The notes beneath the pieces are model-generated. The model saw nothing but the letters and a program-made list of their open reading frames with translations. It ran no database searches and was not told the DNA's origin. From the NCBI GenBank assembly GCA_963169045.1, contig CAUJDF010000003.1:62001-126000 (forward strand): a stretch of 64,000 bases of DNA, in the 5' to 3' direction. Origin of the DNA: Myxococcota bacterium (lineage in GTDB: Bacteria; Myxococcota_A; Bradymonadia; UBA7976; UBA1532). A program made the translations under genes and the position numbers. Every line of letters begins with the position of its first letter. Position 1 is the stretch's first letter. This document shows, piece after piece, positions 27,969 through 41,379 of this stretch.

Positions 27969-28832
27969 TCAGTGGGGCGCGCGGGCGGCGAGCAGGAGGG
28001 TGCCGGTGGCGAAGCGCGGCCAGACGGCGCCGACGCGGTAGCGCAGGAAGGCGAGCGCGCGCTCGGCGGCGGCGCGGCCGGCGACGACGCGCTCCGCGTC
28101 GGCGGCGCGGCCCCCCGCCACCGGCGGCGCGGCAGGGCGACGGCGCAGGGTGCGGATCGCGCGCAGGGCGAGGATGTACGGCGCGAGGTCGAACTCGGCG
28201 CGCGCGACCTCGTCGAGGCCGGCGCGGGCGAGCGTCCGGCGCAGCGCGGCGTCGGTGTAGAACCAGCGGTGCGCGTCGAGGCCCGGGTTGCGGTTCCAGC
28301 GAGCCCACGCGTGCGGGCCGCCAGTGAGCAGGCCCACCTCGAAGCACACGAGGCCGCCGGGACGGGCGATGCGGGCCATCGCGCGCAAGGCGCCGACCGG
28401 GTCGACGAAGTGGCTCAACAGATCGGTGTGATACACGACGTCGTGGCGCGCGTCGGGCACGAAATCCTCGAGCGAGATCGCGGGGATGGACAGACCGAGG
28501 CGCTCGGCGGCGGCGTTGGCGTGGTCCGGATCGGCGTCGATGCCGGCGACGCCGTAGCCGAGGCGGCCGAAGGCCTCGAGCTGGGATCCGCGGCCGCAGC
28601 CGACCTCGAAGACGCGGGCGGGCGGCGGCGCGACGCCGGCGAGCCAGCGCGCGCGGTAGTCGGCCGGCGCGGCGTAGAACGGCTCGGCGTGCTTGTGGCG
28701 CAGGTCGCCCGCGACCTCGGGCGGCGGCGCGGGCGTGGTGTACACGACGCCGCACGGGCACCTGCGGGCCTCGTACGGGGCCTCGCGCCAGACGACCTCG
28801 CCGGACGTGCCGCCGCAGAGAAAGCAGCTCAC
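27969..28832 (-). CDS. Class I SAM-dependent methyltransferase with N-terminal zinc-ribbon
   Basis: 287 residues; the GTG start overlaps the stop of the glycosyltransferase gene (GTGA). The N-terminus has CFLCGG and CPCGVVYTTP, a four-Cys ribbon typical of methyltransferases acting on sugars or natural products. The Rossmann core has VFEVGCGRGSQLEAF (motif I), GIDADPDHA (motif II) and a YHTDLLSHFVDPVGALR post-I region, with RPGGLVCFEV (motif III). It is probably a sugar or glycan O- or C-methyltransferase working with the coupled glycosyltransferase. Confidence 0.88.
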   Translation of the reverse strand: MSCFLCGGTSGEVVWREAPYEARRCPCGVVYTTPAPPPEVAGDLRHKHAEPFYAAPADYRARWLAGVAPPPARVFEVGCGRGSQLEAFGRLGYGVAGIDADPDHANAAAERLGLSIPAISLEDFVPDARHDVVYHTDLLSHFVDPVGALRAMARIARPGGLVCFEVGLLTGGPHAWARWNRNPGLDAHRWFYTDAALRRTLARAGLDEVARAEFDLAPYILALRAIRTLRRRPAAPPVAGGRAADAERVVAGRAAAERALAFLRYRVGAVWPRFATGTLLLAARAPH

Positions 28833-30037
28833 GGCAGCCTCCAGCGCGGCCGCTCGACCGCCTCCGCGAACACGTCCTCGAGCGTCCGGGTCATGCGCTC
28901 CGGCGTGTGCCGCGCCGCGTAGCGCGCGCGGGCCCCGTCGCCGAGCCGGCGCGCCTCCGCCGGATCGAGCAGCAGGTCGGCGACCGCCTCCGCGACGAGG
29001 TCCGGCCTCCCCGGCGGCAGCACGCGCCCGGTCACGCCGTCCGCGACGAGCTCGGGGATGCCGCCGATCGCGGTCGTCACCACCGGCCGCCCCAGCGCCA
29101 TGCCTTCGAGGATGGCGATCGGCGACGAGTCCAACAGCGTGGGGTGGCAGTGCAGGTCGGTCAGCGTCCACACGTCGGCCGACGGCCCGGGGTAGGGGGC
29201 GATGCGCACGCGGTCGCGCAGCCCGAGGCGCGCCACGTCGTCGCGCAGCCGCCGCGCGTAGTCGTCGGAGAGCTGCGCGTAGCCGCAGATCAGGAAGTGC
29301 GCGTCGGGCGCGCGCTCGAGGATGCGCGGCGCGGCCTCGAGCAGCAGGTGCTGCCCCTTGAACGGCTGCAGGCGCGCGATCTGGCCGACGATCGGGACGT
29401 CGTGCGGCAGCCCGAAGTGCGCGGCCATCTCGCGGCGCGCGCGGCGCGCGACCGGCACCGGGATGCCGTTCGGCACCATCGCCCCGCGCGGCGGCCAGCG
29501 GAAGCACGCCAGGATCTCGTCGAGCCGCGCCTGCGAGTCGCAGACGAACGTGTCGAGGCCCGCGTGCAGCGCGCTGCCGAGCGGCCGGAAGGCGGGCTTC
29601 GCCCAGTGATGCGCCATGTAGTCGGTGCCGACGACGGCGCGCACGCCCGCCATCCGGCCCGCCACCGTGCCGAGCGCGATGCCGCGCCACAGCCGGGCGT
29701 CGACGACGTCGATACGGCGGTCGCGCAGGAGGCGCGCGAGCCGCGTCACGACCTCCGCCGCCGTGACGCCCGCGCGCGCTTTCGCCAGCGGCGCAGGCAG
29801 CCGGCGCCGAAGCCGGAACGGCGTCTGCTCCAGGTCGACGACCTCGATGCCCGCCTCCTCGAAGCGCCAGCGCATGGGACCGCCCTTCGCCTCGCTCTCT
29901 TCCGTCGGCGGGACGACGGTCACCACGATGTGCTGAAATCGGCGCCGGTCGAAGGTGGTCAGATAGCTCAACAGGCGGTTCTCGTCGCCGCCGATGTGCA
30001 GCGCGGTGATGACGGATGCGACGCGGATGGTCGACAC
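28829..30037 (-). CDS. GT4-family glycosyltransferase
   Basis: 402 residues from GTG 30037 (MSTIRVASVITALHIGGDEN); earlier in-frame codons would run into the divergent gene. GT-B fold: an N-terminal domain with GGDENRL (the GGxE acceptor loop), VGTDY and VPNGIPV; a C-terminal domain with GQIARLQPFKGQHLLLEA and the E-x7-E nucleotide-sugar motif in SSPIAILEGMALGRPVVT. This is a retaining glycosyltransferase, cytoplasmic or membrane-associated. The downstream methyltransferase is translationally coupled. It probably transfers the sugar made by the neighbouring genes. Confidence 0.92.
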   Translation of the reverse strand: MSTIRVASVITALHIGGDENRLLSYLTTFDRRRFQHIVVTVVPPTEESEAKGGPMRWRFEEAGIEVVDLEQTPFRLRRRLPAPLAKARAGVTAAEVVTRLARLLRDRRIDVVDARLWRGIALGTVAGRMAGVRAVVGTDYMAHHWAKPAFRPLGSALHAGLDTFVCDSQARLDEILACFRWPPRGAMVPNGIPVPVARRARREMAAHFGLPHDVPIVGQIARLQPFKGQHLLLEAAPRILERAPDAHFLICGYAQLSDDYARRLRDDVARLGLRDRVRIAPYPGPSADVWTLTDLHCHPTLLDSSPIAILEGMALGRPVVTTAIGGIPELVADGVTGRVLPPGRPDLVAEAVADLLLDPAEARRLGDGARARYAARHTPERMTRTLEDVFAEAVERPRWRLP

Positions 30038-30040
30038 GGC

Positions 30041-30053
30041 GAAGGGTGCCTTC
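30041..30053. promoter_or_regulatory. Short dyad in the divergent promoter between glycosyltransferase and aminotransferase genes
   Basis: GAAGG-GTG-CCTTC is a perfect 5-base inverted repeat within the 49 bases separating the two divergent starts. It could be an operator half-site pair or chance. No clear -35/-10 pair was seen. Confidence 0.25.
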
Positions 30054-30086
30054 CTCGATGAACGGACGTTGGACCACCGGGGCGCG

Positions 30087-31199
30087 ATGACTATCCCGAC
30101 CAAAGCCATCCCGACGAAAGACTATGCGCGACAGTACCGGGCGCTGTGGCCCGAGATCTCGGCGGCGCTCGAGCGCTGCTTCTTCGAGGACGAGCCGGTG
30201 CTCGGCGCGGCGGTCGAGCGCTTCGAGCGGGCGCTGGCGGCGTGGCACGGCGCGCGCGCGGCGGTCGGTCTCAACTCGGGGACGGACGCCGCGCTGCTGC
30301 TGTACCGCGCGCTCGACCTCGGACCCGGCGACGAGGTCGTGACGTGCGCCCACACGTTCAGCGGCGTGGTGAGCGCGATCCTGCTGGCGGGGCTGAGACC
30401 GGTGCTCGTCGACGCCGATCCCGCGACCGGGCTGCTCGCGCCGGCGGCGGTGGAGCGGGCGATCGGACCGCGCACACGCGCCGTCCTGGCGGTCCATCTG
30501 TACGGGCACCCGGTCGACGTGGACGCGCTGGCGCCGCTGTGCGCGTCGCGCGGCGTGCACCTGATCGAGGACACGGCCCAGGCCCACGGCGCGACGCTGC
30601 GCGGCCGTCGCCTCGGCTGCCACGGCGCGGGCACGATCCTGAGCTTCCATCCGAGCAAGAACCTGGGGGCGTTCGGCGACGGCGGGGCCGTGCTGACGAA
30701 CGACGAGGCGCTGGCGGCGCGCCTGCGCGTCCTCCGCAACCTCGGCAAGGACGGCAAGTACGCCTTCGCCGAGGTCGGCACCAACAGCAAGCTCGACACG
30801 ATCCAGGCGGCGCTGCTCGAGGTGAAGCTGCGCCACCTCGAGGTCTGGGTCGCGCGGCGCCGCGCGCTCGCGAGGCGGTATCTCGAAGGATTGCACGGAC
30901 TTCCGGACCTCGAGCTGCCGGCGGACGACCCCGGACACGCATGGCACCTGTTCGTGGTCCGCACGCCGCGGCGCGACGCGCTCCGCGAGTCGCTGGCCGC
31001 CGCGGGCGTGAAGACCGGCCTGCACTACCCCATCGCGCCGCACCGGCAGCCGGGGCTCGCGCCGCACTTCGCCGGCGCCTCGTTCCCGGTGGCCGAGGCG
31101 TGGGCCGACACCGTCGTGACGCTGCCGCTCTCGCACGAGCACACCGACGACGAGATCGATCGCGCGATCGCGGCCGTGCGCCGCTTCTTCGGGGCGTGA
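30087..31199 (+). CDS. DegT/DnrJ/EryC1/StrS-family PLP aminotransferase
   Basis: 370 residues from ATG 30087. Family motifs: GLNSGTDAALLLYRAL, GDEVVTCAHTF, HLYGHPVDVDAL, LIEDTAQAHGA (Asp pairing with the PLP ring nitrogen), and FHPSKNLGAFGDGG with the Schiff-base Lys. These enzymes move an amino group onto keto-sugars or keto-cyclitols. It opens a four-gene coupled operon and its stop overlaps the next start by 1 base (TGATG). The keto substrate could come from the GH4-like NAD enzyme or the sugar-phosphate cyclase nearby. Confidence 0.93.
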   Translation: MTIPTKAIPTKDYARQYRALWPEISAALERCFFEDEPVLGAAVERFERALAAWHGARAAVGLNSGTDAALLLYRALDLGPGDEVVTCAHTFSGVVSAILLAGLRPVLVDADPATGLLAPAAVERAIGPRTRAVLAVHLYGHPVDVDALAPLCASRGVHLIEDTAQAHGATLRGRRLGCHGAGTILSFHPSKNLGAFGDGGAVLTNDEALAARLRVLRNLGKDGKYAFAEVGTNSKLDTIQAALLEVKLRHLEVWVARRRALARRYLEGLHGLPDLELPADDPGHAWHLFVVRTPRRDALRESLAAAGVKTGLHYPIAPHRQPGLAPHFAGASFPVAEAWADTVVTLPLSHEHTDDEIDRAIAAVRRFFGA

Positions 31200-32269
31200 T
31201 GCGGCTCGCGGTGCTCGGGGGCGGCGCGTACGTCCCGAAGATGTGCGACGTGCTGGCCGACGCCGTGCCGGGGCCGGTGTCGGTGACGCTCGCCGCCCGC
31301 GACGCGGACCGGCTCGCCGCCGTCGCGCGGCACGCGGCGGCGCGCGTGGCGGCGCGCGGCTGGACGGTGCGCGGCACGACCGACACCGGCACGGCGCTCG
31401 ACGGCGCCGACGTCGTCGTGCTGCTCGTGCGCGTCGGCGGCCTGGCGGCGCGCGCGCACGACGAGGCGTTCCCGCGCCGGTTCGGCCTCGCCGGCGACGA
31501 GGGCCTCGGCCCCGGCGGGATCGCGAACGCGTGGCGCACCGTGCCGTGGCTCTCGGCGATCGCGCCGCGGCTGCGCGGCGCGCGCGTGCTCAACCTGATG
31601 GCGCCGCTCGGCATCACCACGCGCGTGCTGCTCGACGGCGGCGTCGACGCCGTCGGCCTGTGCGAGCTGCCGCTCGTGACGCTGCGCGCGCACGGCGCGA
31701 CGTCGTTCCGCTACGGCGGCCTCAACCACCTCGGCTGGTTCTGGGACATGCCCGGACGGCCGGGCGTCCATCCGCTGAAGTACCTCGAGCGGGTGTTCGC
31801 GCCCGCGTCGCTGCCGCCCGCGGGGCGCGCCGAGGCGCTGCGCGCCCTCTCCGACCGCCTCGTCGCCGCGTTCGCGGCGGGCGACGCGCCGCCGGCCGCC
31901 GAGGCGGAGCGCCCGACGCCGTGGTTCGACGACGCGCTGGCGCCCTTCCTGGCGGCGCGCGCCGGCGGTCCGCCCTGGGACGGCTTCGTGAACGTCGCCA
32001 ACGACGGCCTGCTGCCGGAGTTGCCCGGCGACGCGGTGGTCGAGGTGGCCGCGCGCGTCTCCGCGCAGGGCGCGCGGCCGGTCGCGCCGGGCCCGCTGCC
32101 GGCGGAGATCGTGCCGTTCCTGCAGGCGGTCGCGCGCGCCGACGCGCTCGCGCTCGCCGCCGCCCGCGCCCGCGATCCGCGCCTCGTCGCCGAGGCGATG
32201 GCCGCGCTGCCGTTGCCGATCGGCGACGCCGAAGGGCTCGCCCGCGAAGCCATCCGGGAGGTGTCATGA
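31199..32269 (+). CDS. Glycoside hydrolase family 4-like NAD-dependent enzyme
   Basis: 356 residues. The Rossmann start LAVLGGGAYVPKM is followed by GDADVVVLLVRVGG-like strands, GLGPGGIANAWRTVP, LNLMAPLGITTRVL, GLCELPL (catalytic-site Cys) and GLNHLGWFWD, all GH4 landmarks (family: GPGG, NPAG, GLCN, GLNH). GH4 enzymes oxidise C3 of a sugar with NAD+ and use a divalent metal. This protein is shorter than the usual 420-450 residues, mainly in the C-terminal part. In this cluster it may act as a dehydrogenase or a ring-modifying enzyme rather than as a glycosidase. It overlaps the next gene by ATGA. Confidence 0.82.
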   Translation: MRLAVLGGGAYVPKMCDVLADAVPGPVSVTLAARDADRLAAVARHAAARVAARGWTVRGTTDTGTALDGADVVVLLVRVGGLAARAHDEAFPRRFGLAGDEGLGPGGIANAWRTVPWLSAIAPRLRGARVLNLMAPLGITTRVLLDGGVDAVGLCELPLVTLRAHGATSFRYGGLNHLGWFWDMPGRPGVHPLKYLERVFAPASLPPAGRAEALRALSDRLVAAFAAGDAPPAAEAERPTPWFDDALAPFLAARAGGPPWDGFVNVANDGLLPELPGDAVVEVAARVSAQGARPVAPGPLPAEIVPFLQAVARADALALAAARARDPRLVAEAMAALPLPIGDAEGLAREAIREVS

Positions 32270-33222
32270 AGCTGGGAGTCTGCGCGCAGGTGCTCTACCA
32301 CCTGCCCTTCGAAGAGGCGCTGCGCACGGTGGCTGAGCTCGGCCTCGAGGCCATCGAGCTGCCGCTGCACGCCGGCAACCCGTTCGTCGACGTCGAGGGG
32401 GCGCTCGAGGGCGGCTGGCGCGCGCTCTTGCGCCAGGTGAGCGACGCGGGCCTGACGATCTCGGCGCTGTCGATCCACCAGGAGTCGCAGCTGCTCCTGG
32501 GACCGCACGGCGAGGACACCGATGGCATCTTCCGCGGCACGCCGGACGAGAAGTCCGCGTGGGCGGCGGCGCGCGTGGCCCGCGCGGCGGCGCTGGCAGA
32601 GCGTCTCGAGGTGCCGACGCTCATCGGCTTCACCGGGTGCGCCGACTACTCGCGGTGGTTCCCCTGGCCGCTGAGCGACGGTTACGAGCGCATGGCGCCG
32701 CGCCTCCGCGAGGCGCTGCTGCCGGTGCTCGACGACTGCGCGCGGCGGGGCGTGACCTTCGCGCACGAGTGCCACCCGCGGCAGTTCGCCTACGACCTCG
32801 AGACGGCGCAGTGGGCGGTGCGGCTCGTCGACGGCCACCCGGCCTTCGGCTTCAACTTCGATCCGGCGAACCTCATGCTCTCGGGCATGGATCCCGTCGT
32901 CTTCATCGCGGAATTGGGGGACCGCATCCGCCACGTGCACGCGAAGGACGGCGAGCGCGTCGCGCACCACGTCGCGCGCAGCGGCCTGCTCGCCCACGGC
33001 GCCTGGGACCGCCCGGACCGCGGCTTCCGCTTCCGCGTCGCCGGCTGGGGCGATCTGTCGTGGAGGCGCATCGTCACCGAGCTGCAGATCGCCGGCTACC
33101 GCGGCGTCCTCGCCATCGAGCACGAGGATCCCACGATGAGCCGCATGGAGGGCCTGCGGCAGGCCGTCGCCCATCTGTCGCCGATCGTGCTGCGCGACCC
33201 GCCGGAGCCGCGCTGGTGGTAG
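32266..33222 (+). CDS. Sugar phosphate isomerase/epimerase (xylose isomerase-like TIM barrel)
   Basis: 318 residues; ATG coupled to the previous stop. AP endonuclease 2/xylose-isomerase-like barrel: MKLGVCAQVLYHLPFEEAL, LGLEAIELPLH, FAHECHPRQFAYD (metal Glu and His), GFNFDPANLM, IRHVHAKDGE, and GVLAIEHEDP with the last metal Glu. The family includes inosose isomerases/dehydratases (IolE, IolI) and tagatose epimerases, which fits a cyclitol or sugar pathway. The substrate cannot be read from the sequence. Confidence 0.9.
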   Translation: MKLGVCAQVLYHLPFEEALRTVAELGLEAIELPLHAGNPFVDVEGALEGGWRALLRQVSDAGLTISALSIHQESQLLLGPHGEDTDGIFRGTPDEKSAWAAARVARAAALAERLEVPTLIGFTGCADYSRWFPWPLSDGYERMAPRLREALLPVLDDCARRGVTFAHECHPRQFAYDLETAQWAVRLVDGHPAFGFNFDPANLMLSGMDPVVFIAELGDRIRHVHAKDGERVAHHVARSGLLAHGAWDRPDRGFRFRVAGWGDLSWRRIVTELQIAGYRGVLAIEHEDPTMSRMEGLRQAVAHLSPIVLRDPPEPRWW

Positions 33223-34931
33223 ACGTCGTCCGCGATCCGGCGGCGCATCAGGTGAACCTGCGGCCGCCCGTCCATCCCACCCGCACGGCGGTGCTCGCGC
33301 TGCCGCGGCCCGCGCTCTGTCGACGTCTCGTGCCGGATGTGTTCGCGGCGAGGCGCGCGGCCGAGCTGGCGTCGCTGGCCGCCGAGGTGGGCGGCGGCGA
33401 CGGGCCGGCGCCCATCGTCGACCTCGAGGAGGGGACCGTCGAAGAGACGCTCGCCGGCCTCGGAGGCGTCCGGCGCCTCGTCGTCTACGGCGCGGTGGAC
33501 CAGCCGGGCTTCGCGCGCGCGATCGCCTGCCGCTGGCCGGGCGGCCTCGAGCTGCGCGGCAGCCTGCTCTCGCCCCTCATGGACGACCCGGCGCCGGTGG
33601 TGTGGCTCGCGCCGGACGTGGCGCGCGTCTCCGGCGGACCGCGCCCCGACGCGCGCGTCGTGCTGACGGCCTGCGTCGACGGGCCGCAGGGGACGCACCC
33701 GTACGCGCTCGACCCGTCGCGGACCCGCGGCCCGTGGAGCGGCTGCGTCCCGCCGCGCGGCGCGCACGCGCCGTGGGCCGAGGTGTTCGGCCACGAGGTC
33801 GTGCGCGACGCGGTGCTCGGCCTCGACCCCGAGCTCGAGCGCCGCCTCGCGCCGCCGCGCGACGCGCGCGCCCCGATCGCCGCGCGCGTCTACGTCGTGA
33901 CCGGCATGGACGGCAGCGGGAAGTCGACCCACGCGCGCCGCCTCGCCGACACGCTCGAGGCGCGCGGCGTCCGCACCGCCGTGCTGAAGATCTACCGGCA
34001 GGGGGCGTTCCTCGAGCTCGCCGACGAGCTGAGCGGCCGGACGCGCCGCGGCGCGCCGCTCTCGAACTTCCGGCTGTCGCGCGTCGTGAAGCTCGTCGAC
34101 TCGCTGCGCGCGCTGCGGGACGCGGTGCTGCCGGCGGGGCAGGCGTGCGGCGCGCTCGTGATGGACCGCTACCTCGAGACGCACATCGCCGCCGCGGAGA
34201 CGCAGCTCGGCTGGGACCTGCGCGCCCACGCCGCGCTGCGCGCCTTCCCGCCCGCGGACCGGGTGTGCTGGCTCGAGCTGCCGTTCGGGCAGGCGCTGGC
34301 CCGGCTGGCCGATCGCGGCGAGCGCCTCAGCGCCGACGAGCACCCCGCCGGCCTCGCGGGTTACGCGGAGAGCTTCGCGGCGCAGGCCGGCGGCCCCGGC
34401 CACCTGCGCCTCGACGCGCGCGCGCCGTTCGCGGCCAACGCCGCGTCCATCGCCGCGCACGTCCTCGACGCCGCGCCGCCCGGCGGCCGCGCGGTCGACG
34501 TGCCCATCGCGTCCGCGCCGTCGCGCCCGCGCCCCGGGCCGACGCGCGTCGTCGTCGGCCGTTTCCCCGACCGCCCGCAGCTCGGCGCCGGCGTGCTCGC
34601 GCTGCGCGCCCTCGTCGACGCCGCCGCCGTCCCCGAGCAGCTCTGGATCGAGGCCTACGCCGCCCAGCTCGTCCTCGACCTGCGCGCCGGCGCGCCCGAC
34701 GGCGCCTGCGTGCCGGTCTGGCCCGCCGCGCTGCGCCGCCTCTGGCCCGACCTCGAGTCGCTCGCCGAGCTCACCCGCCTGCTCGAGGCCGAGGCCGAGG
34801 TCGAGTCGTGGACGCCGGAGCCCGGCCCGTTTTTCGAGTCGTTCTGCGCGGTTGCGGCCGCGCGCCGCCTCGCCGAGGCCACCGCGCGCGCCACGCGCGA
34901 CGTCGCGCTCGCCGACGCCTGGCCCGCCTGA
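33216..34931 (+). CDS. Two-domain protein: unknown N-domain plus thymidylate-kinase-like P-loop kinase
   Basis: 571 residues from GTG 33216, overlapping the previous gene by 7 bases. Residues 1-220 are an unrecognised alpha/beta domain (LVVYGAVDQPGFARA; VVWLAPDVAR). Residues about 223-420 are a TMPK-like P-loop kinase: VVTGMDGSGKSTHARR (229-237), a Lys/Arg-rich acceptor region, ALVMDRYLETHIA (DR(Y/H) motif) and DRGERLSADE as lid. The C-terminal 140 residues are Ala-rich and contain VVVGRFPDRPQLGAGV, again of unknown fold. Nucleotide kinase activity is improbable in this setting; phosphorylation of a sugar, cyclitol or nucleoside intermediate is plausible. Confidence 0.75.
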   Translation: MVDVVRDPAAHQVNLRPPVHPTRTAVLALPRPALCRRLVPDVFAARRAAELASLAAEVGGGDGPAPIVDLEEGTVEETLAGLGGVRRLVVYGAVDQPGFARAIACRWPGGLELRGSLLSPLMDDPAPVVWLAPDVARVSGGPRPDARVVLTACVDGPQGTHPYALDPSRTRGPWSGCVPPRGAHAPWAEVFGHEVVRDAVLGLDPELERRLAPPRDARAPIAARVYVVTGMDGSGKSTHARRLADTLEARGVRTAVLKIYRQGAFLELADELSGRTRRGAPLSNFRLSRVVKLVDSLRALRDAVLPAGQACGALVMDRYLETHIAAAETQLGWDLRAHAALRAFPPADRVCWLELPFGQALARLADRGERLSADEHPAGLAGYAESFAAQAGGPGHLRLDARAPFAANAASIAAHVLDAAPPGGRAVDVPIASAPSRPRPGPTRVVVGRFPDRPQLGAGVLALRALVDAAAVPEQLWIEAYAAQLVLDLRAGAPDGACVPVWPAALRRLWPDLESLAELTRLLEAEAEVESWTPEPGPFFESFCAVAAARRLAEATARATRDVALADAWPA

Positions 34932-34974: not shown

Positions 34975-35787
34975 TCACCGCGCGAGCGGGACACCTCGCG
35001 CCGGCACGAGGAGGGCGGCGCCCAGCGCGCCCGCTTCGTAGCCGGCGCGCGCGAGCTCCACGCGGCAGGCGGCGACGGCCTCGGGGAACGCGACCGACTC
35101 CAGGCCGGCGCGCACGTGGTCGAGCAGCGCCGGACCGACGGACGCGAGGCCGCCGCCGATCACGACGAGCGACGGGTTGAGCAGGTTGACGACGTTGCCG
35201 AGGCCGACGCCGAGCGTCTCCGCCGCCGCGGCCCAGTCCACGCCCGCCCGCCCCGCGGCGAACGCGTTCAGCGTGCCGCGGCGGCCGGCCCAGTCCCGCG
35301 GCCCCGCGCGGAAGTCGACCGTCGTGTTGCCGATCTCGCCCGCGAGGCCCGCGGCGCCGCGCCACAGCCGTCCGCCGAGCACGATCGCGCCGCCGACCCC
35401 GGTGCCCGCCGCGACGAACACCATGCTGTGCACTTCGCCGCGCTGCCGGACCTCGGCGAGCGCGTGCGCGTTCACGTCGTTGTCGACCGCGCAGGGCACG
35501 CCGAAGCGGTCGGCCATCTGCGCCGCCAGCGGCACCTCGGACCAGCCGTCCAGCATGATCGACGAGCGCACGAGGCCGCGCTCGCCGTCGACGAGCCCGG
35601 GGAAGCCGAGCCCGATGCCGCGGACGGGCGCGTCGAGCTCGGACAACGCGTCGGCGACGAGGTCGAGGACGCGCGCCGGTCCGGTGCCGGCGCCGGTCGG
35701 GCGGCGCACGGCGCGCACGAGGCCGCCGGCGTCGTCGACGAGCGCCGCGAGCAGCTTCGTCCCGCCGAGGTCGACGCCGAGCTTCAC
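34975..35787 (-). CDS. ROK-family sugar/cyclitol kinase lacking the zinc motif
   Basis: 270 residues; the GTG overlaps the stop of the upstream fusion gene (GTGA). ATP-binding motifs: GVDLGGTKLLAAL (phosphate-1), DNDVNAHALAE (catalytic Asp region), GTGVGGAIVLGG (phosphate-2) and VVIGGGLA (adenosine). The usual ROK zinc element is gone: the GE-x-GH His is Asn (GLAGEIGNTTVD) and there is no CxCGxxGC. Validamycin and acarbose pathways use ROK-type cyclitol kinases, so a cyclitol or sugar kinase role fits. It is the last gene of a six-gene minus-strand series. Confidence 0.88.
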   Translation of the reverse strand: MKLGVDLGGTKLLAALVDDAGGLVRAVRRPTGAGTGPARVLDLVADALSELDAPVRGIGLGFPGLVDGERGLVRSSIMLDGWSEVPLAAQMADRFGVPCAVDNDVNAHALAEVRQRGEVHSMVFVAAGTGVGGAIVLGGRLWRGAAGLAGEIGNTTVDFRAGPRDWAGRRGTLNAFAAGRAGVDWAAAAETLGVGLGNVVNLLNPSLVVIGGGLASVGPALLDHVRAGLESVAFPEAVAACRVELARAGYEAGALGAALLVPARGVPLAR

Positions 35788-37913
35788 GCGAACCGCGCCT
35801 CGGCCGCCACGGCGCCTCGCGCCACCGCGTCCATCGCCCGCGCCAGCTCGTCGATGCCCACCTCGGGCACGATGCGCACGCGGTCGATCGCCGCGGGCAT
35901 CACGAAGTGCAGGTGCCCGCCGCGCACGAGCCGGATCTCGCGCAGCCGCGCCAGCGACGCGAGGCGCCGCGCCCGCGGGATCTCCGGCGGCAGGCCGTAC
36001 GCGTCCAGCAGGCGCCGGATGCGCGACGCCACCGACGGCGGACACACCCCGCGCGCCCGCGCCACCTCGGTGGCGACGGCGATGCCGAAGCCGACGGCCT
36101 CTCCGTGCAGCAGCCCGGCGTACTCCATCTCCGTCTCGAGCGGGTGCGCGAGCGTGTGCCCGAGGTTGAGCGCGCGGCGCAGGTCGACCTCGTACGGATC
36201 GGGGTCGAGCAGCGCGATCTTCCGACGCGCGGCGCGGCGCACGATGGTCGCGAGCAGCGCGGCGTCCTGCCCCGCGAGCACGTCCTCGGCGTGCGCCTCG
36301 AGCAGGCCGAACAGCGTCGCGTCGCCCGTCAGCGCCACCTTGATCGCCTCGGCGACGCCGGCGGCCAGGTTTCGACGGTCCAGCGTCGCCAGCACGCCCG
36401 GATCGCAATACACCGCCCTGGGATGGTGGAACGCGCCGACGAACTTCTTCGCCCACGGCGCATTGACGGCCACCTTGCCGCCGATGCCGCTGTCGTGCTG
36501 CGCCAGCAGCGTCGTCGGCACGTTCACGTACGGCACGCTGCGCATGTACGTGGCGGCCACGAACCCGCCGACGTCGGTGATGAGACCGCCGCCGAGGCAC
36601 ACCAGGACGGAGCGGCGCCCGAACCCGGCGGCGTGCATCCGCTCGATGACCTCCTGGTAGGGATCCATCGCCTTGGAGCGCTCGCCCGCAGCCAGCACGA
36701 CGACCGAGGTGTCGATGCCGGCGTCGCGCATGGCATCGTGCAGCGCGCGGCCGTACAGACAGTGCACGACGTCGTCGGTCAGCACGGTCATCGACACGCC
36801 GGGGAAGCGGCCGCGCAGTCGCTCGGGCAGCCGGCTCAACAGACCGGGCTCCACCTCGATCGGATAGCTCCACGTGGCGCGGACCTCGACGCCCAGCGGC
36901 TCTTCGTCTTCGCCGTCGTGCGCGGCGGCGGCGGCCACCTCGTCGCGGTACCAGGCGACGAGGTCGGCGAGCGCGTCGGCGAGCGCGTGTCGCGGCGCCC
37001 AGCCGAGCGCGCGCAGGCGTTCGATCGCCGCGAAATGACGGGGGATGTCGCCGGCGCGCCCCGGCAGCCGGTGGATCTCGACGTCGCCGAACAGCGTCTG
37101 CAGCAACGCCTCGCCGCTCGTCTCGACGCCGCTGCCCACGTTGTACGCGCGCCCCGGCTCGCCGGCGATCGCGAGCGTGCGCAGCGCGTCCGCCACGTCG
37201 CGGACGTCGACGAAGTCGCGCGTCGTGTCGAGCGGTCCGACCTCGACGCGCGGCGGCGTCAGGCCGTCGGCGATCTCCGCGGCCTGGCGCGCGAGGTGCC
37301 CCGCGAGGTGGCGCTCGTCCTGACCGGGCCCGACCGGGTTGAAGATGCGCGCGACGACGATCGGCAGGCCGTCGCGCGCGGCCAGCACCGCGGCGGCGTC
37401 CTCGGCGGCGCGCTTGCTGACCGCGTAGAGGTCTGCGGGCGCGCCGGCCATCGCTTCGTCGAGCGGCAGCGCCGTAGGACGGCCGTACACCGCGCCGGTC
37501 GATCCGAGCACGACGCGCGGCGGCGCCACGCCCGCGCCGGCGATCGCCTCGAGCAGCGAGACCACGGCCTCGACGTTGTTGCGCATGAGCGCCGCCGGCG
37601 GCTCGTCCCGCAGCGACGTCGCCAGGTGCACGACGACGTCGGGCCGCACCGAGCGCAGCAGGTCCATGAGCGCCGGCCGGTCCAGCATGTCGACGCGCTC
37701 GTAGCGGTGGCGCGCGTCGGCGAGCGGCGCGCGCAGGGCGTGCGGCAGCGGCGCGCGGACCCGCGTCGAGCCGCGGTGCACGAAGTGCGTGAAGCCGTCG
37801 AGCCGCGGCGAGCGCCCGACGCCGACGATCTCGACCTGCGGATCGGCGGCCAGCCAGCGCGCGACCGTGTACCGCCCGATGAACCCCTGCGCCCCCGTGA
37901 CGAGCACCCTCAT
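35784..37913 (-). CDS. Fusion of NAD-dependent epimerase/dehydratase and 3-dehydroquinate-synthase-like sugar-phosphate cyclase
   Basis: 709 residues in one uninterrupted frame; the ATG overlaps the preceding gene's stop (ATGA). Residues 1 to about 320 are an extended SDR: VTGAQGFIGRY, then STGAVYG, YAVSKRAAEDAA (YxxxK), ARIFNPVGPGQ and FVDVRDVADAL. An acidic linker (about 328-342, HDGEDEEP) joins it to a complete DHQS-superfamily domain (about 343-709): LAAGERSKAMDP, LGGGLITDVGGFVAATY, VPTTLLAQHDSGIGGK, GAFHHPRAVYCD, AAGVAEAIK, LNLGHTLAHPLE and GLLHGEAV. Metal and catalytic residues look intact. The subfamily (DHQS, EEVS-like or inosose-type) is unresolved; the setting favours secondary cyclitol synthesis over aromatic amino-acid synthesis. 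The upper half might epimerise the product made by the lower half. Confidence 0.88.
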   Translation of the reverse strand: MRVLVTGAQGFIGRYTVARWLAADPQVEIVGVGRSPRLDGFTHFVHRGSTRVRAPLPHALRAPLADARHRYERVDMLDRPALMDLLRSVRPDVVVHLATSLRDEPPAALMRNNVEAVVSLLEAIAGAGVAPPRVVLGSTGAVYGRPTALPLDEAMAGAPADLYAVSKRAAEDAAAVLAARDGLPIVVARIFNPVGPGQDERHLAGHLARQAAEIADGLTPPRVEVGPLDTTRDFVDVRDVADALRTLAIAGEPGRAYNVGSGVETSGEALLQTLFGDVEIHRLPGRAGDIPRHFAAIERLRALGWAPRHALADALADLVAWYRDEVAAAAAHDGEDEEPLGVEVRATWSYPIEVEPGLLSRLPERLRGRFPGVSMTVLTDDVVHCLYGRALHDAMRDAGIDTSVVVLAAGERSKAMDPYQEVIERMHAAGFGRRSVLVCLGGGLITDVGGFVAATYMRSVPYVNVPTTLLAQHDSGIGGKVAVNAPWAKKFVGAFHHPRAVYCDPGVLATLDRRNLAAGVAEAIKVALTGDATLFGLLEAHAEDVLAGQDAALLATIVRRAARRKIALLDPDPYEVDLRRALNLGHTLAHPLETEMEYAGLLHGEAVGFGIAVATEVARARGVCPPSVASRIRRLLDAYGLPPEIPRARRLASLARLREIRLVRGGHLHFVMPAAIDRVRIVPEVGIDELARAMDAVARGAVAAEARFA

Positions 37914-38743
37914 GACCGCAACCCCTCCTCGAGCCCGATGCGGGCGCGCCAGCCGAGCGCCCGTTCGATGTGGCCCACGTCCGCCACCATCTCCATCACG
38001 TCCGCCGCGCGGCGCCGCTCCGGCCGCTCGACGATCGGCAGCGGCCGGCCGGCGGCGCGGACGGCGGCCTCGGCCAGCGCGCCGATCGACACGCCGCGGC
38101 CGCTGCCCACGTTGAACGCGCCGCGCGCCTCGCCCTCGACGGCGGCGCGGATCGCCGCCGCCACGTCGTCCACGTGGCAGAAGTCGCGCACCGGCCGCAG
38201 GTCGGCGAGCTCGACCGCCCGCGCCGCCGGATCGGCCAGCTGCCGCAGCACGTGCCCGACGACGCCGGCGCCGCGCGGCCCGTACACGCAGAAAGGCCGC
38301 AGAACGACTGCCGAAACGCCGGCGGCGCCGATCACCGCCTCGGCGCCGACCTTCGCCGCGCCGTAGGGCGACACGGGCCGCAGCGGCGCGTCCTCGGCCA
38401 CCGGGTTGCGCGCGGGCCGGCCATAGACCTCGGCCGACGACACGTAGACCAGTCGCGTCCCCGCCGGGAGCGCGGCCACGAGCGCCGCCGTCCCGACGAC
38501 GTGCGCGCGCGCGTGCTCCACCGGCCGCGCGAAGGAGTCGGCCACCGACGGCGGCCCGGCGAGGTGCACCACCGCGTCGACGCCCGAGACCAGCGATCCG
38601 ATCGCCTCGACGTCGGCCCGCGCCCAGTCCGCCGGACCCGGCGCCCCCGGCGGTCCGGCATGGGCGCGGATCGCATGATCGCGGAGCGCCCGCACCACCG
38701 CCCGCCCGAGGAACCCGCCCGCCCCCGTGACCAGCACCCTCAT
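37910..38743 (-). CDS. NAD-dependent sugar epimerase/dehydratase (extended SDR)
   Basis: 277 residues. VTGAGGFLGRAVVRAL (GxxGxxG), VDAVVHLAGPPS, VYVSSAEVYG, SPYGAAKVGAEA (YxxxK), LRPFCVYGPRG, and FCHVDDVAAAI, followed by NVGSGRGVSIGAL. It is shorter than typical UDP-glucose 4-epimerases (about 330), with a compressed middle. ATGA overlaps on both sides couple it to the radical SAM gene upstream and the epimerase/cyclase fusion downstream. It probably acts on a nucleotide-linked sugar or cyclitol. It is a relative of the N-terminal half of the next gene. Confidence 0.92.
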   Translation of the reverse strand: MRVLVTGAGGFLGRAVVRALRDHAIRAHAGPPGAPGPADWARADVEAIGSLVSGVDAVVHLAGPPSVADSFARPVEHARAHVVGTAALVAALPAGTRLVYVSSAEVYGRPARNPVAEDAPLRPVSPYGAAKVGAEAVIGAAGVSAVVLRPFCVYGPRGAGVVGHVLRQLADPAARAVELADLRPVRDFCHVDDVAAAIRAAVEGEARGAFNVGSGRGVSIGALAEAAVRAAGRPLPIVERPERRRAADVMEMVADVGHIERALGWRARIGLEEGLRS

Positions 38744-39738
38744 TCGTCGTCGACCACCCACGGATAGTCGCAGCCGGCGCAGATGGAGCCCGCCCCGAAG
38801 TCGTCGCGTAGGTGCGCGCGCCGGACGGCGCGATAGCGCGCGCCCTGCCAGATCTGTTCGACGGTGCGTTCGCCGATGCGACCGAGCGACACACGCCGCC
38901 GCCAGTCGCAGTTGCACAACACGCACTCGCCGTCGTGCATGACATAGAGCTTCACGAACGGGCGCTGGCACAGCGGCCGGCGCGGGCGCGGCTTGTGGCG
39001 CGAGCTGCCGAGCCCCTGTGTCACCTCGGCGACGGTGCGCTCGTTCGAGAACCCCTTGAGCAGCACGTACGGCCCGAGCTCCGATGGCATGTGCGGCAGC
39101 GTCGCCACGACCTCGGGCACGTCGCCGGTCACGATCTGCAGGTGCAGGCGACCGAGCTCGCCGCGGGCGTGCGCCGGCACGACCGCGCGCAGGTTGCCGA
39201 GCACGCGCTCGAACGACAGGCCGCCCATCACGCGCTCGTACGTCGTCCGCTCGAAGCCGTGGACGGAGACGCAGAGCTCGTCGAGGCCGGCGTCGGCGAG
39301 GCGGCGGGCCAGGTCGGGCGTCAGCGCCGCGCCGTTGCTGAACAGCCCGATCTTCGTCGACGGCAGCGCGGCGCGGGCGCGCGCGATCCAGTCCGGCAGC
39401 CGCTTGTCGAGCAGCGGCTCGTTCATCAGGAACGGCGAGAGACGCTCGACGCCGCGACCCGCGAGCTCGCCGAGGATGCGATCGAACATCGCCTCGCTCA
39501 TGCGTTCGTGCACGAAGCCCGGCTCGGCGGTGACCCCGGGGTAGGGGCACATCTCGCAGGCCGCGTTGCAGCGCGTGTACGTCTGCAGCTGCACCTTGAG
39601 CGGGAAGGGCGGCACCTCGGCGTCGAGCACGGTGTCGAGGAAGGCATCCGTCGCGTCCGGCCGCTCGCGCAGGGCGGAGAGCGTGCGCAGCGAGTCGGCC
39701 TCGCGCGCGCCGGTCGTGCGCTGGTCGAAGGCGCGCAT
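38740..39738 (-). CDS. Radical SAM/SPASM-domain enzyme
   Basis: 332 residues from ATG 39738. Radical SAM cluster motif CNAACEMCPYP (about 56-66) on the first strand of the partial TIM barrel, then SPFLMNEPLLDKRL, LFSNGAALT and LCVSVHGFERTTYERVMGG. The C-terminal SPASM region holds CQRPF, CVLCNCDW and CAGCDYP for auxiliary Fe-S clusters. Relatives include BtrN-type aminocyclitol dehydrogenases, peptide-modifying maturases and sugar C-epimerases. With no peptide precursor seen nearby, a sugar or cyclitol substrate is more likely. An open leader of 166 bases lies upstream (39739-39904). Confidence 0.9.
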   Translation of the reverse strand: MRAFDQRTTGAREADSLRTLSALRERPDATDAFLDTVLDAEVPPFPLKVQLQTYTRCNAACEMCPYPGVTAEPGFVHERMSEAMFDRILGELAGRGVERLSPFLMNEPLLDKRLPDWIARARAALPSTKIGLFSNGAALTPDLARRLADAGLDELCVSVHGFERTTYERVMGGLSFERVLGNLRAVVPAHARGELGRLHLQIVTGDVPEVVATLPHMPSELGPYVLLKGFSNERTVAEVTQGLGSSRHKPRPRRPLCQRPFVKLYVMHDGECVLCNCDWRRRVSLGRIGERTVEQIWQGARYRAVRRAHLRDDFGAGSICAGCDYPWVVDDE

Positions 39739-39904
39739 CAGACTCGAGTTCCGCCACTTCGGCGTCGCCGAGGCCGAGCAACGACCGAGGCGCGGCAAGG
39801 AGCGAAGCGAATTGGCGTGCTCGACGCACGTCGAGACCGAGATTCGTCGAGCGACGCGGCCGCGACCGGTCGGGGCCGGCCGCAGGCAGCCGAAGATGGC
39901 GAAG
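39739..39904 (-). promoter_or_regulatory. Leader region between nucleotidyltransferase/Nudix and radical SAM genes
   Basis: The only sizeable gap in the minus-strand sugar unit (166 bases), so a promoter or internal start for the radical SAM gene may lie here. The radical SAM frame stays open through it, but without a convincing start. No clear -35/-10 pair or hairpin was seen. Confidence 0.3.
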
Positions 39905-40990
39905 TCATGGGGCTCCGTAGGCGAGCGCGCGCGCCGCCGGGACGGCGAGCGGGCCCGGTGCGTCGCCCGACCAGGCGAGGCGCTGGCCGAGGCGGGGGAC
40001 GACGGCGAGCTCGCCGAGCGCGGCGGTGAACACGTGATGCCGGAAGCGGCGGCCGCTCGTGGGATCGACGTCGTCGAACACAGCGAGCGGGCGCAGCTCG
40101 GCGTCGCCCAGGCCCAGCTCCTCGTCGAGCTCGCGCCGGATGGCGTCGCCCGCCGTCTCGCCGGGCTCGATCTTGCCGCCCGGCGTGTCCCAGAGACCGG
40201 CGTAGCAGCGCGCGCCGGCGGGGCGCGCCTCGAGCAGCGCGCCGCGCGGCCCGGTGAGCAGCGCGCCGACGACCTCGACCTCGGGCGCGAACCAGCGCTC
40301 GAACACCGCCGCATGGTCGCGGACGAGCGCCGCCGCACGGGCGACCGCCGAGGCGTCGTTCACGTCGATCCACGGCGCGGCGTGCCCGAAGGCGCGCACC
40401 TCCTCGCCCGACTCGAGGAGCGCGCGCACCAGGTCCGGCGCGTCGACGCGCCCGGACGCGGGCAGGCGCGCGAGCGCGGCGCGACCGAGCACGTACGTGC
40501 CGCTGCACACGCGCACGGGCAGCGCCGGCTTCTCGCGATACGCGGTGAGGCGCCCGCCCTCGACGTCGACCGCGCCGAACGGCACGCGGAACGGCTCGAC
40601 GTGCGTCGCCACCGTCATCGTCGCGCCGTCGTGGTGCGCGACGAGCGCGGCGAGGTCGAGCGCCGTCAGGTTGTCGGCGTTGACCACCAGCACGTCGCCC
40701 CCGTCCCGCAGCTCGGCGGCGGCGCCGATCGTGCCGCGCGGCGCCGGCTCCTCGTAGACGGCGACCGCGCCGCCGAACGCGCGCGCGATCACCGAACGTT
40801 CAACGAATTCGCGGATCTCGGGGCGCGCCGCCGGCGTGACGACCGTCACGTCGCGCAGGCCGGCGGCGAAGAGGAGCGCCAGGTTGCGCTCGAGCAGCGG
40901 CAGCCCCAGCACCGGCACCAGCGGCTTCGGCGTCGCGCCGCCCATGCGCTCGCCGCGCCCGCCCGCCTGCACCAGCGCGCGCACGTTCAC
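39905..40990 (-). CDS. Fusion of sugar nucleotidyltransferase and Nudix hydrolase
   Basis: 361 residues from GTG 40990, whose GTGA overlaps the cupin stop. Residues 1 to about 220 are an NTP_transferase: VQAGGRGERMGGATPKPLVPVLG (signature split by the P-loop Lys), VVNADNLTALDL (metal Asp) and HAAPWIDVNDASAV. Residues about 235-361 are a Nudix domain with a perfect box GGKIEPGETAGDAIRRELDE followed by ELGL (about 269-291). Such a pairing could make and trim an NDP-sugar or NDP-cyclitol, or regulate NTP supply. Confidence 0.9.
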   Translation of the reverse strand: MNVRALVQAGGRGERMGGATPKPLVPVLGLPLLERNLALLFAAGLRDVTVVTPAARPEIREFVERSVIARAFGGAVAVYEEPAPRGTIGAAAELRDGGDVLVVNADNLTALDLAALVAHHDGATMTVATHVEPFRVPFGAVDVEGGRLTAYREKPALPVRVCSGTYVLGRAALARLPASGRVDAPDLVRALLESGEEVRAFGHAAPWIDVNDASAVARAAALVRDHAAVFERWFAPEVEVVGALLTGPRGALLEARPAGARCYAGLWDTPGGKIEPGETAGDAIRRELDEELGLGDAELRPLAVFDDVDPTSGRRFRHHVFTAALGELAVVPRLGQRLAWSGDAPGPLAVPAARALAYGAP

Positions 40991-41379
40991 GCGCCGACCT
41001 CGAACACGAAGATCGTCAGGTCGACGTCGCCGGTGTTCTCGAGGCCGTGCTCGCCGCCGGGCCGGTTGCGCACGAGGTCGCCAGCCCGCACGTCGAAGGA
41101 CTCGCCGTCGCGCCACATGCGCCCGCGCCCCGCGAGGACGAGGTAGTACTCCTCCTCGTCGTCGGCGTGCCGGTGCCGGCCGATGCTCGCGCCCGGCGGC
41201 AGGACGGCCACGTCGATGAAGTGACACGTGCCGCTGCCTTCGACGAGCCGCCGGAACCGGATCTCCCCCGCGCCGCCGTGCGCCCGGACGAGCGCGAGCG
41301 GTTCGGCGAACAGGTTCGTGCGGAGGTTGCCCGCGCGCGCCGGGGGCGCCGCAGCGTCGTTTCGGTCGTCGTGTCGCAT
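40987..41379 (-). CDS. Small cupin-domain protein
   Basis: 130 residues forming one cupin barrel: motif 1 is GRHRHADDEEEYYLVLAG (two His, Glu) and motif 2 is GDLVRNRPGGEHGLEN (Gly, His). The N-terminal arm has FRRLVEGSGTCHFIDVAVLP. Cupins in sugar clusters serve as isomerases, epimerases or ligand sensors. It is the first gene of the minus-strand sugar/cyclitol unit, coupled to the nucleotidyltransferase/Nudix gene. Confidence 0.88.
   Translation of the reverse strand: MRHDDRNDAAAPPARAGNLRTNLFAEPLALVRAHGGAGEIRFRRLVEGSGTCHFIDVAVLPPGASIGRHRHADDEEEYYLVLAGRGRMWRDGESFDVRAGDLVRNRPGGEHGLENTGDVDLTIFVFEVGA

Follow-up and report, generated by a model that had tools for sequence, protein, structure and literature searches.

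Two questions are raised by a gene that joins an extended SDR to a 3-dehydroquinate synthase (DHQS)-like cyclase: whether the fusion is real, and whether its cyclase serves the shikimate pathway or another route. The gene was found on the minus strand at 35784-37913 of the window, by which we mean the whole 64,000-nucleotide stretch of myxococcotal DNA analysed. Translation gave one frame of 709 residues and a terminal stop, with no internal stop, which bears out the original prediction of an uninterrupted frame containing an acidic linker. The SDR half (residues 1 to 325; 36939-37913, minus strand) carries GAQGFIG, GSTGAVYG and YAVSK, and was matched over residues 3 to 260 by the whole Pfam Epimerase profile (148.6 bits; cut-off 20.9). 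The cyclase half (residues 348 to 700; 35814-36872, minus strand) was matched by DHQ_synthase (PF01761; residues 405 to 517, 131 bits) and DHQS_C (PF24621; residues 519 to 646, 105.8 bits), both above the curated Pfam cut-offs, placing it in the sugar phosphate cyclase (SPC) superfamily. Sequence matches in the PDB followed the same division, with sugar-nucleotide SDRs across residues 1 to 324 and DHQ synthases across 348 to 693. Between the halves lies a linker of approximately residues 326 to 347 (36873-36938, minus strand) containing AAHDGEDEE; the junction at 36880-36930, where a check for an assembly join had been proposed, falls at this linker.

An AlphaFold2 model built from a shallow, seven-sequence alignment showed two folded halves (mean pLDDT 79, pTM 0.53). 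Residues 330 to 348 of the linker were of low confidence, as were the cyclase active-site stretches 443 to 456, 478 to 495 and 571 to 574. Owing to the low pTM, the placement of the halves relative to each other cannot be read from this model.

The genome from which the window derives is a draft in 109 contigs, which leaves room for an artefact in which an error of assembly or sequencing fused two separate genes. A search of related genomes revealed a fused protein with 57% identity across residues 1 to 701 in a member of another genus of the same family (G002); a scan of GTDB contigs recovered the same genome (as L044) together with a fused protein from the cyanobacterium Elainella saxicola E1 (L045), 47% identical across residues 2 to 699. 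The length and sequence of the linker vary among the three fusions and the join is kept in all of them. A fourth member was found in another family of the phylum (G153), on a contig that ends inside the cyclase half. Two further genomes, assembled independently, carry this join within conserved neighbouring genes, which rules out an assembly join and reduces the likelihood of an artefact to practically nil. Thus, the fusion is real, as predicted, and is common to three genomes from two phyla.

The architecture had also been predicted to be unusual, and the survey agreed: beyond the three confirmed instances, no further SDR-cyclase fusion was found among 379 Myxococcota genomes sampled, 242 relatives of Elainella, 292 sampled Cyanobacteria, or 296 Actinomycetota and 301 Pseudomonadota genomes sampled. 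The fusion is therefore rare; limitation to three genomes is not implied, since these searches were samples in which few candidates were scored per genome, and the GTDB pattern scan would miss diverged copies. A contig scan with a single protein as query returned no relative, whereas the alignment-based scan did recover relatives. Searching plasmids with the SDR half yielded generic SDRs only (approximately 31-33%), and a phage collection yielded only DHQ-synthase matches across the cyclase half. A literature search covering open-access papers, and few subscription journals, yielded no account of an SDR-DHQS fusion.

We then considered the class of the cyclase. In two maximum-likelihood trees the fused cyclases formed one clade (support 100/99) outside AroB. 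The branch separating the fused cyclases, three Streptomyces SPCs and sedoheptulose 7-phosphate (S7P) cyclases from AroB and the 2-deoxy-scyllo-inosose synthase (DOIS)-like cyclases was supported at 100/97 and 100/98. When rooted on the S7P cyclases, the fused clade was the nearest sister of the AroB side (89/77), and the nearest row outside the clade by path length was an AroB; the fused clade is thus best worded as sister to AroB, not inside it. The fused cyclases grouped neither with 4p53 and 5tpr nor with 2d2x, and membership of the EEVS/DDGS and DOIS groups was ruled out by trees built without characterised EVS (2-epi-valiolone synthase) or aminoDHQ synthase. The tree sequences of 4p53, 5tpr, 2d2x and three AroBs were copied from printed phmmer alignments, and so represent aligned parts only in which small copying errors are possible. 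We take 4p53 (PDB label 'Cyclase') to be ValA and 5tpr (PDB label '3-dehydroquinate synthase') to be DDGS.

The DKK motif expected near the C-terminus of AroB is replaced by EIRLVRGG, with R661 at the position of K356 (IRLVRGG, residues 660 to 666; 35916-35936, minus strand). Against the NCBIfam aroB model TIGR01357 (cut-off 305 bits), the window protein (284.8) and its G002 relative (289.2) scored below the cut-off and the Elainella protein (317.9) above it. Furthermore, the genome encodes a separate DHQ synthase with the usual DKK on another contig (C55), beside an AroE-AroK fusion, and a second DHQ synthase is also present in Elainella and in G002. Tree, motif and context together led us to set aside an AroB isozyme as the class, although its substrate may yet be DAHP. 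On alignment and tree evidence, the cyclase half is assigned to a distinct subfamily of SPCs, a relative of AroB but not the shikimate AroB. The earlier label 'DHQS-type' holds for the fold; 'sugar phosphate cyclase' is the better name for a protein that lies outside the AroB clade, lacks DKK and coexists with a separate AroB. As a separate observation, the AroE-AroK fusion adjoining the AroB of this genome joins shikimate dehydrogenase and shikimate kinase in one frame (L001:2028-3329).

Alignment to the A. nidulans DHQS, whose residue numbering we assume for the catalytic site, revealed that the equivalents of R130, D146, K152, E194, K197, K250, E260, R264, N268, H271, H275 and H287 are all kept in the window cyclase. 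The N162 position is occupied by K490 in the window and by Asn in the G002 and Elainella fusions. The DExE..LR stretch of AroB reads DPYEVDLRR, within the signature LLDPDPYEVDLRR (residues 568 to 580; 36174-36212, minus strand) that is typical of the fused clade. Among the 108 SPC halves collected, a DKK-like motif was truly absent only from the fused cyclases and three Streptomyces SPCs, one further miss (L019, which has DKKV) being a slicing artefact. The fused clade is marked by the absence of DKK together with LLxxDPxExDLRR. ValA and DDGS lack K250, N268 and H275 (M, D/A and P in the alignment), whereas the fused cyclases keep them, so that the substrate may be an acid such as DAHP. The clade thus mixes AroB-like with S7P-cyclase-like features, and its substrate cannot be read from the sequence.

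Comparison with characterised enzymes placed these features in context. The fused cyclase shares with AroB the fold, the NAD and metal catalytic residue set and approximately 35-41% identity; it differs in its SDR, its loss of DKK, its own clade, its cluster context and the presence of another AroB in the genome. With the EEVS and DDGS enzymes (ValA, 4p53; 5tpr) it shares the SPC superfamily, a PDPYEVDLRR stretch resembling PNLWEHQLRR of ValA, and a pathway logic involving a ROK kinase and a nucleotidyltransferase, yet it retains the AroB-type K250, N268 and H275 and lies outside their clade. 2-Deoxy-scyllo-inosose synthase (2d2x) belongs to the same superfamily, and the aminotransferase and radical SAM genes near the fusion recall the butirosin context; the fusion, however, is without the KQAVN and EYGH-type motifs and groups elsewhere. 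EboD of the ebo operon is likewise a non-AroB SPC clade hidden under DHQS annotation, with a xylose-isomerase-like TIM-barrel neighbour (PMC5133447). By its description EboD is set apart from the fusion, being a separate protein in an operon with a UbiA-type prenyltransferase and a phosphodiesterase (PMC5133447).

The SDR half resembles extended SDRs such as GDP-6-deoxy-D-mannose reductase (6x3b) and GalE-like enzymes in its Epimerase domain and in the motifs of the window copy, where GxxGxxG, the Ser/Thr region and YxxxK are all intact. It differs from them in its fusion to a cyclase and in a catalytic Lys that is not conserved within the fused family: YxxxK reads YAVSK in the window, YAVTR in G002 and YGASA in Elainella, giving K, R and A at the catalytic position. 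The Elainella protein has additionally lost two Rossmann glycines (TNAQGFIERY). The prediction of intact motifs in both halves therefore stands for the window copy and fails for the SDR half of its relatives. In the three fusion pairs the SDR halves (51/41/32% identity) are less conserved than the cyclase halves (64/56/54%). With the Lys and the Rossmann glycines not conserved, the fused family as a whole cannot be taken to carry out an SDR reaction; judging from the motifs, the reaction may be real in the window lineage and decaying elsewhere, or the domain may have another purpose. An SDR half acting as a pseudoenzyme or structural module, for dimerisation or for cofactor or substrate handling, with only the cyclase catalytic, would fit the loss of these residues and the weaker conservation, and also the finding that another SDR, its motifs intact, is encoded beside the fusion in the window. 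Against it stand the full set of classical SDR motifs in the window copy and the retention of the domain across two phyla. We regard this as a serious contender that falls somewhat short of an even chance, and one compatible with our preferred reading of the cyclase.

The genes around the fusion were identified by Pfam and tblastn. Its start ATG overlaps the stop of SDR1, a second, unfused extended SDR (37910-38743, minus strand; ATGA), and its stop overlaps the start of a ROK-family kinase (34975-35787, minus strand; GTGA), which embeds it in a tight operon. Upstream on the same strand lie a radical SAM/SPASM protein (38740-39777, start approximate), an NTP_transferase fused to Nudix (39905-40990, start approximate) and a cupin (40987-41379). 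On the plus strand are a DegT/StrS-family aminotransferase (30087-31199, start approximate), a GH4-like protein with the fold of an NAD-dependent glycosidase (31196-32269), a xylose-isomerase/IolE-like TIM barrel (32266-33222) and a P-loop, dTMP-kinase-like kinase (33249-34931, start approximate). A group 1 (GT4-type) glycosyltransferase is encoded at 28829-30109 (minus strand, start approximate).

Eleven genes were found by tblastn to be collinear in G002 at 43-65% identity, in the order cupin, NTP-transferase-Nudix, radical SAM/SPASM, SDR1, fusion, ROK, DegT, GH4-like, TIM barrel, P-loop kinase and GT4; the SDR1 match (49%) covered the first third only, and the DegT-to-P-loop-kinase block is inverted in the window. 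In G153 the cyclase is followed by the ROK, TIM-barrel and P-loop kinase genes. In Elainella the cupin adjoins the fusion (58% identity, against 63% for the cupin in the G002 cluster), followed by a ROK kinase, a class III aminotransferase, an SDR, an APH-type kinase, a histidine phosphatase and an EamA transporter. An SPC, a ROK-type kinase, a nucleotidyltransferase and an aminotransferase thus occur together in one conserved cluster, a grouping that resembles C7-cyclitol and aminocyclitol pathways. Three smaller features of these genes were observed. The window ROK kinase lacks the Cys-rich motif of its G002 counterpart (GPRDWAGRRGTL versus GPPCRCGRRGCL); the NTP_transferase-Nudix fusion is conserved in G002 at 49% identity; and the GH4-like protein has CELP where GH4 enzymes presumably carry CN-P, and instead of a glycosidase it may be an oxidoreductase.

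In the synthesis of acarbose and validamycin, a DHQS-like enzyme cyclises sedoheptulose 7-phosphate as the first step and the ROK-family cyclitol 7-kinases AcbM and ValC phosphorylate the cyclitol; acarbose synthesis also involves an epimerase and a nucleotidyltransferase (PMC9200736). The 2-DOS pathways combine an SPC with an aminotransferase (PMC5461906), and butirosin synthesis employs the radical SAM dehydrogenase BtrN (PMC9012708). As the cyclase, ROK kinase, nucleotidyltransferase and aminotransferase of the cluster recall these systems, we infer an aminocyclitol-type pathway, and on balance consider it probable that a dedicated sugar phosphate cyclase with its fused SDR starts that pathway as the first committed step, and does not serve shikimate synthesis. 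The cyclase half would convert a ketose phosphate, most likely S7P, to a C7 ketocyclitol by the chemistry of DHQS (NAD-dependent oxidation, phosphate elimination, reduction, ring opening and intramolecular aldol reaction). The SDR half would most likely epimerise or reduce the cyclitol, or have been recruited for that purpose and become inactive in some relatives. The original suggestion that the fusion would channel a sugar phosphate to cyclisation, or act on NDP-linked forms of the product, stands as a hypothesis. Phosphorylation of the cyclitol would fall to the ROK kinase and its activation perhaps to the nucleotidyltransferase; the DegT aminotransferase, together with the oxidoreductases, would aminate it before glycosyl transfer. 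Substrate, product, the role of the SDR half and the order of steps are all inferred. An unfused SPC encoded on a Streptomyces plasmid has DPxE..LRR in common with the fused clade and likewise lacks DKK (RVRRVRNG); it adjoins a transketolase-like enzyme, a BadF-type kinase, an IMPase and an NDP-sugar synthase. The transketolase-like neighbour hints at S7P as substrate, but this SPC is distant (end branch 1.3) and falls outside the fused clade.

Two other readings of the cluster were weighed against an aminocyclitol-type pathway. The cyclase half might be a 3-dehydroquinate or aminoDHQ synthase in the strict sense, or nearly so, with DAHP or amino-DAHP as its substrate, and the cluster might draw on the shikimate or the aminoshikimate route. 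AHBA synthesis, with the ROK kinase RifN and the DegT enzyme RifK, would be a parallel. The retained DHQS catalytic residues, aroB HMM scores near the cut-off and, in Elainella, above it, and the ROK kinase and DegT enzyme adjoining the fusion are all consistent with such a role. Its position outside the AroB clade (100/97-98), the lost DKK motif, the separate AroB in the genome, and a scan of the cluster proteins in which no DAHP synthase or DHQ dehydratase domain was found nevertheless make this distinctly unlikely. Alternatively, the product of the cluster could be a building block, sugar or cyclitol, for a surface glycan instead of a secreted metabolite. DegT, ROK and NTP-transferase proteins also serve polysaccharide synthesis and catabolism, which counts against the aminocyclitol reading, and glycan loci typically contain NTP-transferase, GT4, DegT and SDR genes. 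The neighbouring genes scanned, however, included no polymerase, flippase or multi-glycosyltransferase set, and those of Elainella include an EamA transporter, an APH-type kinase and a class III aminotransferase, so that we regard a glycan role as somewhat doubtful.

The new elements are the fusion to an SDR, a cyclase clade of its own recognisable by a sequence mark, and the conserved cluster. Annotation will probably label proteins of this kind as shikimate DHQS. The fused copies make up a distinct clade of cyclases that bears a simple mark and is linked to a conserved cluster, as yet unstudied, in Myxococcota and at least one cyanobacterium. Should the product be an aminocyclitol, the compound class would be related in logic to the acarbose, validamycin and 2-deoxystreptamine drugs, and the fusion would point to an enzyme whose two active sites are coupled. 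We raise more tentatively the possibility that the fused clade constitutes a new functional class of SPC, with its own substrate or stereochemistry and an integral SDR reaction on what the cyclase makes, in a new aminocyclitol pathway of Myxococcota and at least one cyanobacterium.

Other cyclase variants were encountered during the searches. In the same family, an N-terminal nucleotidyltransferase is fused to a DOIS-like cyclase (L039:7845-9767, plus strand, with a matching locus in L038; 640 residues in G012), which groups with 2d2x at 98/96. The Streptomyces plasmid SPC clade (L131:11827-12966 and L132:11785-12900) has Ala at the R264 position and is followed by genes for a hypothetical protein and a flavoprotein.
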